DNA of 64,000 nucleotides from a virus: positions 1 to 64,000 of the IMG/VR virus record IMGVR_UViG_3300042543_000704; one strand, 5' to 3'. Shown one piece after another: positions 26,354-28,718 of the stretch (its first letter is position 1; the number at the start of each line of letters is the position of its first letter). The notes under the pieces were generated by a model that was not told the DNA's origin, searched no databases, and worked only from the letters and a program-made list of their open reading frames with translations. A program made the translations under genes and the position numbers.

Positions 26354-26668
26354 ATGACAGCGCTATACACCCCTCGGCTGCTGCGCGGCGGCTCCTGGTT
26401 CAACTTCCCCAGGGACTGCCCCTCGGCCCATCGCTACCGCGCCCTGCCTGCTGATACCAGCATCATCATCGGTTTCCGCGTGGTGTGCCTCCCCCCGGGA
26501 GGAAACACCATGACAACCCCTGACTCCTCTCGGCTACTGCGCGGGGGCTCCTGGATCTTCTATCCCGGGAGCTACGACTCGGCCTTCCGCTACCCCTTCC
26601 GGTGCGGCGGTGCCTTCAGTTTCATCGGATTCCGCGTGGTGTGCCTCCCCCGGGAGGTAACACCATGA
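26354..26668 (+). CDS. Two-module FGE/C-type-lectin variable-domain protein (modules 1-2)
   Basis: A 104-residue protein consisting only of two copies of the module that ends FGE-type DGR target proteins. Module 1 (26384-26488) runs [12 protein letters not shown] ... IIIGFRVVC. Module 2 (26540-26644) runs [12 protein letters not shown] ... FIGFRVVC. Differences fall at positions that are Asn or other AAY codons in typical DGR templates. An ATG sits between the modules, so each may also be a separate unit. The stop overlaps the next ATG (ATGA), implying coupled translation with the FGE gene. Confidence 0.7.
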   Translation: [104 protein letters not shown]

Positions 26669-27384
26669 CAGCCCTTGACGCCCATCGGCAGCTGCGCGGT
26701 GGCTCCTGGATCAGTGACGAACCACGCAACTGCCGCGCCACCCTCCGGGGCAGCGTCAACAAGGCCTGCGCCCTCCCCATCATCGGGATTCGCCCCTGCC
26801 GCCTCCTCCGTCCATCTTCCATTTCTTCAGAAACCATGACTACCTCCAATCACAGCATCTCCGCTTCCGCCCTCAACCTGCCGATGGTCTCCATCGCTCC
26901 AGGGCACTTCATGATGGGATCCGATTCACCCTCCGCTTTCTCTGATGAGAAGCCGGTCCATGAGGTGATCATCGACAAGGGCTTTGAGATGGCGGAAACT
27001 CCGACCACTCAAGCCCAGTGGCGATGGGTCGCCGAGAACCTGCCCAAAATCGAGCGCGATCTCAATCCCGATCCCTCACGCTTCAAGGGCGATGACCGCC
27101 CCGTCGAATGCGTCTCCTGGTATGACGCCATGGAATTCTGTGCCCGCCTCAGCCAGGCCACAGGTAAGACCTACACCCTCCCCACCGAGGAGCAGTGGGA
27201 ATACGCCTGCCGCGCAGGCACCACCACTGAATTCGCTTTCGGTGACACCCTCGATGAGTCCCAGGCACGCTTCAACGCAGATTCCACCTGCGATGTCAAG
27301 CAGTACCAACCCAATGCCTGGGGCCTCTACGACATGCACGGCCAGGTCTTCGAGTGGTGCCTCAACGAATACAAGCCCTATTGA
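26665..27384 (+). CDS. FGE-sulfatase-fold protein lacking its C-terminal variable module
   Basis: The coupled ATG at 26665 first reads a degenerate module (RGGSWISDEPRNC ... IIGIRPC). A second ATG at 26836 then starts the FGE core: MVSIAPGHFMMGSDSP, EKPVHEVIIDKGFEMAETPT, RPVECVSWYDAMEFCARLSQ, YTLPTEEQWEYACRAGTTTE, NAWGLYDMHGQVFEWCLNEY. The protein stops there, exactly where FGE and DGR target proteins continue into RGGSW ... GFRVVC. That missing part lies in separate modules on both sides. Sulfatase-activating function is unlikely; ligand binding through the C-type-lectin fold is the usual role of DGR-linked members. Confidence 0.75.
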   Translation: MTALDAHRQLRGGSWISDEPRNCRATLRGSVNKACALPIIGIRPCRLLRPSSISSETMTTSNHSISASALNLPMVSIAPGHFMMGSDSPSAFSDEKPVHEVIIDKGFEMAETPTTQAQWRWVAENLPKIERDLNPDPSRFKGDDRPVECVSWYDAMEFCARLSQATGKTYTLPTEEQWEYACRAGTTTEFAFGDTLDESQARFNADSTCDVKQYQPNAWGLYDMHGQVFEWCLNEYKPY

Positions 27385-27394
27385 TTCCCTGCCC

Positions 27395-27799
27395 ATGCAT
27401 TCCGATCTGATTGGGGGCCGGCTTCGACATTTCATGCATCAAGCCGCCCCCTTTTTCTGCATTGCTATTGCCCTGCTCTGGCATCTTGCCGATGCCTCCT
27501 ACGCCGCCGGCAGCCAGCTGCGTCTTGCCCTGGAAGAGCGCAGCCAGCAGCTAGCAGCCCTCCATCTCCACCTCCTCGGCCTCACTCCCCCTGAACCCCA
27601 ATCCATCCCTCCTATGACCCTCTCTGTGCCCATTGCAGAAGACCCGGAGCTAACAGCCTTCCGCTGCCGGCTCAATGGAATCGACCTCAGCCTCAATGTG
27701 TCCCAGCTGCGTGCCCTGGCTCGCGAGCGGGGGCACCGCGGCAACAAGGTCTCCCGAGCTCGACGCTCTGACCTGCTCCTCTTGCTGAGTAGGTCATGA
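27395..27799 (+). CDS. Membrane-anchored Rho-N/SAP-like protein
   Basis: A 134-residue protein from ATG 27395, inserted between the FGE core and modules 4-7. A hydrophobic segment (APFFCIAIALLWHLADASYA) is followed by a helix (SQLRLALEERSQQLAALHLH). A C-terminal motif (VSQLRALARERGHRGNKVSR) resembles SAP or Rho-N domains. An internal ATG at 27615 would give only the soluble part. Its stop overlaps the next ATG by four bases, so it is co-translated with the array. Confidence 0.5.
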   Translation: MHSDLIGGRLRHFMHQAAPFFCIAIALLWHLADASYAAGSQLRLALEERSQQLAALHLHLLGLTPPEPQSIPPMTLSVPIAEDPELTAFRCRLNGIDLSLNVSQLRALARERGHRGNKVSRARRSDLLLLLSRS

Positions 27800-28383
27800 C
27801 GCATCAAGTACGACGCGGCGGTACTTGGTACCGCACCCTCCTTTCAAATGGCCGCTCTACCTATCGAAGCGTCTGGCCGTCCCGTGAGCTTCCTGACGAC
27901 TTCACCGGCTTCCGTGTGGTTTGCCTCCCCCGGGTCGTGACGGATCTCTCCGTTCGCGGCGGCTCCTGGAGCAGCAACCACGATCGCTACTGTCGGTCTG
28001 CCTCCCGTGGTTGCGACTTTTCCGAATGCACCGATTCTGAAACCGGGTTCCGCGTGGTGTGCCTCCCTCCGGAGGTAGCACCACCCCGGATGGTACCGCC
28101 ACTCCGGATGATAGTGCGCGGCGGCTCCTGGCTCAGCAGCCCCTGGCGCTGCCACTCGGCCTCCCGCTTCCGCGGCCGGGCCGGCTCTGCCGGCGGCCAT
28201 TTCGGGTTTCGCATGGTGTGCCTCCCTCCAGAGGTCTCCACCGCACGCTGCTACTTGCCACTGCGCGGCGGCCCTTGGCGCATCACCTGCCGCTCGGCCT
28301 ACCGCGGCCGCTTCCAGCCCGGCTATGTCAGCAAAGGCTTCGGCTTCCGCGTGGTGTGCCTCCCCCGGGAGGAAGCACCATGA
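27796..28383 (+). CDS. Four-module FGE/C-type-lectin variable-domain protein (modules 4-7)
   Basis: A 195-residue protein made of four variable modules in tandem: [40 protein letters not shown] and [13 protein letters not shown], each closing in GFRVVC or GFRMVC followed by LPPEV or LPREE. No anchor, signal or FGE core is present. It overlaps both neighbouring genes by four bases. A Ser-to-Thr or Ser-to-Pro change in the first and last module openings suggests relaxed constraint or drift. Confidence 0.7.
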   Translation: [195 protein letters not shown]

Positions 28384-28718
28384 CAACCCCCGCAATGCGG
28401 GGCGGCTCCTGGTTCAGTGCTCCGCCGGTTCAACTTCCCCAGGAACCGCCGCTCGGCCTACCGCTCGGCTGCCGCGCCGCCAGCCGGCTCAACATCAACC
28501 CGGCCGACGTCAGCACCATCGTCGGTTTTCGCGTGGTGTGCCTCCCCCGGGAGGTCAAGCCCACGCAGGTAGCCATACGCGGCGGCTCCCACGCCCGGCT
28601 CAACTACCCCTGGTGCCGCTCGACCTGGTGCCGCTCGGCCTGTCGCGGCGTTTGCCATTCGCCCGACTATGCCGACGACGACATCGGCTTCCGCGTGATC
28701 TGTCTTTCGCCCTCCTGA
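28380..28718 (+). CDS. Two-module variable-domain protein (modules 8-9), module 8 frame-shuffled
   Basis: A 112-residue protein coupled to the previous gene by a four-base overlap. Module 8 carries a 16-base insertion after RGGSW relative to module 1 and is 23 bases longer further on, so its middle is read in a different frame ([15 protein letters not shown]) before GFRVVC is restored. Module 9 opens [13 protein letters not shown] and ends [10 protein letters not shown] without the palindrome. Likely the end of the array. Confidence 0.65.
   Translation: [112 protein letters not shown]

Follow-up and report, generated by a model that had tools for sequence, protein, structure and literature searches.

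The window analysed here, a 64,000-nucleotide stretch (positions 1 to 64,000) of the 64,443-base IMG/VR virus record IMGVR_UViG_3300042543_000704 (G000), carries on its + strand, between 26384 and 28712, nine short modules of the form RGG[STP][WH]...G[FI]R, which we identify from their sequence as variable repeats of the type produced by diversity-generating retroelements (DGRs). By domain coordinates, each module corresponds to the last segment of the FGE-sulfatase domain, and the array is interrupted by a core that carries the remainder of that domain. We consider it probable that one constant core of the FGE/C-type-lectin type is served in these viruses by several interchangeable hypervariable modules, an explanation that takes in ribosomal frameshifting in related viruses. 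With slightly less assurance, we propose that in cyanophages without a reverse transcriptase (RT) a host DGR rewrites a set of C-terminal tips belonging to one receptor-like protein and that -1 frameshifting, at five sites in one virus, lets a single mRNA yield products with mixed tips, while viruses of the window type would obtain the same result through circular permutation and modules placed in cistrons of their own.

Variable modules and their core

The initial annotation had described nine free modules in an uninterrupted row, with conserved edges and in genes overlapping by four bases. All nine were found (M1 to M9, starting at 26384, 26540, 26695, 27814, 27955, 28117, 28264, 28398 and 28578), eight of them in open reading frames (ORFs) made up of modules, but the row is broken between M3 and M4 by an FGE core and a 134-amino-acid ORF, and M3 is fused to the core. 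M1 (26384–26494) and M2 (26540–26650) share one frame of an ORF at 26354–26668 (PF03781, 33.1 bits, best stretch 211–254), which overlaps by ATGA (26665–26668) the ORF at 26665–27384. The latter is open from its ATG at 26665 through M3 and, in the same frame, into the core, giving a circularly permuted FGE-type protein of 239 amino acids that was aligned with other permuted proteins. The core (26836–27384) lacks the C-terminal module and matches positions 5–194 of the 255 of PF03781 (129.8 bits). It is followed by the 134-amino-acid ORF (27395–27799), for which a Pfam search of 27404–27799 gave no match, by an ORF with M4–M7 (27796–28383; PF03781, 42.0 bits) and by an ORF with M8 and M9 (28380–28718; 24.3 bits), the last two each beginning at an ATGA overlap. 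The four-base overlaps are at 26665, 27796 and 28380; elsewhere adjoining modules are in a common frame. GGGAGG runs resembling Shine-Dalgarno (SD) sequences, putative ribosome-binding sites, lie 7 bases 5' of the ATG codons of M2 (run 26497–26502, ATG 26510), M3-core (26652–26657, ATG 26665) and M8 (28367–28372, ATG 28380).

PF03781 is found on the core and on all three module ORFs, so the target domain is of the C-type-lectin/FGE type, and the best stretches of the module ORFs (about 211–254) and of the core are complementary parts of that one domain. The 3' edge GGNTTYCGCGTGGTGTGCCTCCC, with up to three mismatches allowed, gave seven matches, every one within the array, against 0.00 in shuffled sequence; the 5' edge alone was a weaker signal (15 matches against a shuffle mean of 4.9). 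The conservation of the edges is not general: M3 ends in GIRPCR, M7 is shortened and begins with RGGPW, M9 has RGGSH and an insertion, and M8 has two insertions with the centre between them in a shifted frame.

In its usual description, a DGR has one template that rewrites the end of a gene targeted within the same genome. The reference used here was the Asn-rich template of a Cyanobium DGR; the exact template of the window array was not found, so part of the mismatch outside adenines may reflect template difference. Against this reference, the nine modules are mismatched at 137 of 215 template adenines and at 131 of 742 other positions (odds ratio 8.2, p 7e-37). For M1, M2 and M6 the counts are 57/75 and 33/249, and the third base of the template Asn codons is C or T in all 30 cases. 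Because the mismatches concentrate at template adenines, the modules are DGR variable repeats, as the initial annotation had suggested. None of them matches the template perfectly outside its adenines, non-adenine mismatches numbering 9–24 per module.

Origin of the variation

The search for an RT with a matching template turned out negative for the viruses and positive for cyanobacteria. RVT_1 was not detected in the window record, in 39 and 12 related virus records (0/39 and 0/12; up to 277,244 bases) or in three complete cultured phages, whereas it was found in 17 of 18 cyanobacterial genomes, although RVT_1 also matches RTs other than those of DGRs. A template adjoins the RT in the freshwater Cyanobium/Synechococcus genomes L285, L296 and L297, and, among 300 genomes from a single host family, 5 contain the exact template pattern. 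There was no Asn-rich copy among the window modules. In IMG/VR the exact pattern was found in three stretches, none of them in the window virus or its nearest relatives, although an inexact template could be missed: L314 is unrelated, L304 lies on the contig of L016, which has a variable module, and L315 is an Asn-rich copy. Since the virus record and the 51 related records yielded no RT, the window array does not appear to be a self-contained DGR. As RT and template occur together in host-type genomes and no RT was found in the viruses, rewriting in trans is the best reading, and we infer that host DGR machinery rewrites the viral modules during infection.

Template-RT pairs were also noted in the genomes of Synechococcus sp. 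Tobar12-5m-g (L285, L313) and Cyanobium sp. FGCU6 (L297, L310). Such pairs in unicellular Synechococcus/Cyanobium contrast with the absence of DGRs from Synechococcus stated in the accessible part of a 2020 survey (PMC7517822).

A similar situation is seen in the Ma-LMM01-like Microcystis phages (Fukuivirus), which have an FGE gene with a variable module fitting a host-type template in a complete genome without a detected RT. The cultured phages Ma-LMM01 (L347, 4643) and MaMV-CH01 (L346, 4640) each have one FGE module in the stretch read, in genes annotated as hypothetical or kinase, and no RVT_1 was found in either complete genome. Compared with the Microcystis template in L281, their two modules are mismatched at 37/62 adenines and 20/160 other positions, and eight IMG/VR modules of the same length as that of Ma-LMM01 at 133/248 and 78/640. 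They differ from the window virus in having a single in-frame C-terminal module and no array (one stretch read per phage). Their pattern favours in-trans rewriting through a host DGR, though capture of host copies via recombination is also possible. Because cultured phages with complete genomes show this RT-less, host-template pattern, the trans hypothesis is testable now.

Capture deserves consideration for the whole set: the modules may have been taken ready-made from variable genes of the host, without retrohoming on the virus genome, which we regard as possible, if doubtful. Many such modules exist in host genomes, and the virus contig L315 has (348–887) a single ORF with an Asn-rich, template-like module beside a variable one, the RVT_1 search of that record being negative. 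Yet in L022 and L024 module 1 is identical while module 2 differs at 19 of 26 template adenines and 2 of 82 other sites, as retrohoming would have it; this contrast is not decisive, as the arrival of a different host module by transfer would give a similar picture.

Permutation and turnover of the array

The read-through from M3 into the core amounts to a circular permutation, in which the module precedes the core and the core ends before the module segment; the idea of modules donated to the FGE core, raised by the initial annotation, is borne out in this form. Its two other ideas, a cassette reservoir and a multi-headed binding protein, are possible. From one to four in-frame N-terminal modules, with a core ending before the RGGSW position, are found in the window and in L003, L004, L005, L015, L018, L047, L050 and L058, and L006 has an N-terminal module plus a C-terminal module series. 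In a check of 14 loci, 10 had at least one N-terminal module in frame, L033 had only a degenerate one, and none was seen in L012, L014 and L052. The N-terminal modules of L015, L018, L047 and L050 (n=8) are mismatched at 134/208 template adenines and 108/608 other positions. Whole-gene arrays, as distinct from module arrays, were seen on the virus contigs L139, L037 and L039, with runs of nine, three and four FGE cores, respectively.

On both flanks the window has long matches of 93–98% to L003 and L004. Between 27830 and 28660 there is no long colinear match to either, only short shuffled matches between modules. M1 and M2 fall inside a colinear match in the comparison with L003, though not in that with L004, and M3 lies within a gap-free 1205-base match to L004. 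We read this as rearrangement of the module array between near-identical viruses; comparison of related viruses, proposed in the initial annotation, has revealed both this and adenine-specific variation. In the explanation that we prefer, with one core and interchangeable modules, the modules would complete the binding face of the core, M3 by its covalent link; the others could do so through alternative start sites, as polypeptides of their own, or by serving as a stock from which the M3 position is refilled by shuffling.

That the array is instead debris, old DGR variable repeats spread by recombination and decaying in short unused ORFs, strikes us as unlikely. Of the two signs of pseudogene remnants that the initial annotation had named, lack of adenine bias is not observed, and decay is observed in part: the array is partly eroded, as judged by the mismatches at 21–24 of 82–83 non-adenine sites in M3–M5 and the indels in M7–M9, with the centre of M8 shifted, and it is rearranged between close relatives. 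Against this, the three module ORFs are all open and have the ATGA overlaps and the GGGAGG runs before M2, M3 and M8; the template Asn codons of M1, M2 and M6 retain their pyrimidine third base throughout; four modules of L003/L005, counted without the misregistered module L003_7132, are mismatched at 50/100 adenines and 25/332 other sites; and non-adenine sites are nearly conserved (3/82) in relatives with a -1-frame module.

The nearest cultured phage for the terminase and one structural protein of the window is Synechococcus phage S-EIVl (47% and 42%), and the virus is taken to be cyanobacterial; between the window and L003, a structural protein shows 100% identity. A search for the consensus module among cultured phages gave no match. 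It is quite improbable that the virus population has a DGR RT of its own in regions outside these records. Most of the related records are fragments, so an RT could be missed, and G000 is shorter than its near relatives of 87,101 and 88,123 bases, but the RVT_1 searches of the related records and complete cultured phages argue to the contrary.

Putative frameshift sites between modules in related viruses

We surveyed FGE cores from virus and bacterial loci (174 of 185 rows, one per 95% cluster) and looked for the first module within 420 bases downstream of the core. It was in frame in 129 clusters; 18 had it in the -1 frame and one in the +1 frame, and in 26 none was found. Eleven of the 18 loci with a -1-frame module have an in-phase G_GGA_AAG or A_AAA_AAG heptamer 12–24 bases before RGGSW, and six have G_GGG_GAG 21–27 bases before it; the remaining one, the bacterial locus L254, has no heptamer and its zero frame stops before the module. 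Among the 129 in-frame loci, one (L224) has G_GGA_AAG or A_AAA_AAG and none has G_GGG_GAG; other A/T-rich heptamers occur near the junction in L055, L201, L206, L220 and L223. The Fisher p for heptamer enrichment is 3e-11 without the G_GGG_GAG group and 4e-20 with it, values that overstate the case because the loci are related rather than independent. As background, 29,236 core codons contain six in-phase heptamers, none of them within any of the 17 -1-class cores. An upstream SD-like run of at least 5 bases accompanies 15 of the 17 heptamers, compared with 7 of 46 controls, in which the position was fixed and is not a real site.

These 17 loci, on 16 IMG/VR contigs, have a common layout. Fifteen of them have a second module, which is in the zero frame, whereas a further module within 420 bases is found in 2 of the 129 in-frame loci. 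L006 has five heptamers, each ahead of a -1-frame module (two of these modules share one protein sequence), and its sixth module is in the zero frame; in L011 the sole module found is in the -1 frame. The slippery site of L063 is preserved with another sequence, A_AAA_AAG, and the -1 frame there is open for only 18 bases before RGGSW. In all 17 predicted -1 products the core continues unbroken into the module; the product of L007, the only one scored, is a complete PF03781 domain (7–253 of 255, 173.4 bits), while its zero-frame product matches in two stretches (152.2 bits). In IMG/VR, the GGGAAAG form of the heptamer-plus-module pattern was found in nine stretches, eight on contigs already in the set, and the ninth (L303) was discarded as having no FGE module; of 18 stretches with the AAAAAAG form, only L332, on the L063 contig, has a -1-frame FGE module. 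Terminase_6N was found in 6 of the 22 records of the -1 and permuted classes (5 above the cut-off), 4 of the 6 being among the 16 -1-class contigs.

Both modules of a tandem vary at adenines: first modules (-1 frame, n=11) are mismatched at 151/286 template adenines and 100/902 other positions, and second modules (zero frame, n=11) at 175/286 and 96/902. These counts cover the 36-residue RVCCL-type only (11 of 17 first, 11 second and five single viral modules) and include the identical first modules of both L022 and L024. In L011 and L013, whose cores are 96% identical, the -1-frame modules differ at 17 of 26 template adenines and 3 of 82 other sites. The -1 frame is the one in which the codons are kept, which is indirect evidence of its translation.

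Programmed -1 frameshifting between hypervariable modules is, on these comparisons, the best explanation for the relatives. A slip at the heptamer would append module 1 to the C-terminus of the core; with no slip, module 1, read out of frame, would form a Ser/Thr/Ala/Pro linker and module 2 would be appended. A diversified module could double as a safe linker in the unshifted frame because NNC read one base later gives NCN (Ser, Pro, Thr, Ala). We give little credence to internal initiation of module 1 or an assembly error in the frame change: a GTG stands 6 bases before RGGSW in L007 and both L016 genes and in several other loci the open -1 stretch contains a start codon, but L024, L034, L063 and L087 have no ATG, GTG or TTG there, a lone module would be without the rest of the fold, and 17 loci on 16 contigs agree in phase and in where the heptamer lies.

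Several observations weigh against frameshifting or against the wider scheme, as do the erosion of the array and the fragmentary records discussed above. The heptamer is missing from the window and its nearest relatives, the core-module junction of the window having no in-phase heptamer and the core stopping 3 bases past the matched stretch. G_GGG_GAG, present in 6 of the 17 loci, is not a canonical X_XXY_YYZ site. A tree built from 87 cores requires seven changes for the -1 class, with strong branch support making at least two of them unavoidable. Predicted downstream RNA structure is not in excess of controls (mean z -1.13 versus -1.02). The zero frame is open through single modules, too (41/46 viral, 74/83 genomic), so we rejected such openness through module 1 as evidence; it is permissive and not proof, as NCN is never a stop codon. 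The GGGAAAG form of the pattern was absent from the 300 host-family genomes. Finally, AlphaFold models of the L007 zero-frame product (mean pLDDT 61.7) and of the permuted L015 product (49.2) were too poor for module-core docking.

Other features of the window

The motif TCAGCAGTGCACACC and its near copies occur at 22737, 22957, 23361, 23612, 24862, 30031, 32200, 34509 and 38517 on the + strand and once on the - strand (38522), compared with a mean of 2.27 and a maximum of 6 in shuffles; it is possibly an early promoter or operator. A 214-amino-acid protein encoded at 25669–26313 ends in AWAASCAAGDAA-type repeats, and in its region numerous repeat matches to L003 and L004 overlap one another. 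Scanning the window for Rfam families and tRNA genes yielded nothing.

Relation to known systems and significance

DGRs with several variable repeats, as well as activity in trans within one genome, are already known. Like other DGR targets of the FGE/C-type-lectin type, the window has adenine-specific variation relative to an Asn-rich template, conserved edges and an FGE-sulfatase domain. Unlike known DGRs, its virus has no detected RT or template, its modules are split from the core or permuted relative to it, and they form arrays; it therefore appears to be a DGR target not of the usual form. The accessible part of the DiGReF paper describes DGRs with up to four variable repeats and one ORF of three full FGE paralogs, not free modules (PMC3521204). 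In Thiohalocapsa PB-PSB1, as excerpted, DGR targets are diversified in trans within one genome (PMC10907252); there, as here, variable repeats match a template encoded elsewhere, but here target and template would be in different replicons, those of a virus and of its kind of host.

An upstream SD-like run plays a role in frameshifting in dnaX. The sister viruses have such a run together with the same heptamers in the same phase as lambda gpG/gpGT (G_GGA_AAG) and Escherichia coli dnaX (A_AAA_AAG), as given in the accessible parts of PMC7618472 and PMC5009743, respectively. Unlike in those two cases, the choice would be between hypervariable domains, at up to five successive sites, and in the relatives only. 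Among the open PMC papers listed, with those on frameshifts judged by title or abstract, none connected DGRs to ribosomal frameshifting, RT-less phage targets to host DGRs, or DGRs to Ma-LMM01, and for DGRs and circular permutation there were only papers unrelated by title; the accessible parts of PMC8144416 and PMC10743442 contain neither 'frameshift' nor 'tandem'.

The targets described here are in viruses in which no DGR machinery was found, and module and core are uncoupled; in the sister viruses, it appears to be the ribosome that chooses which hypervariable tip is displayed. If this is true, such viruses would gain diversity by targeted mutation plus decoding, and bench proof of the frameshift ladder in the relatives would establish a novel mode of displaying diversity.

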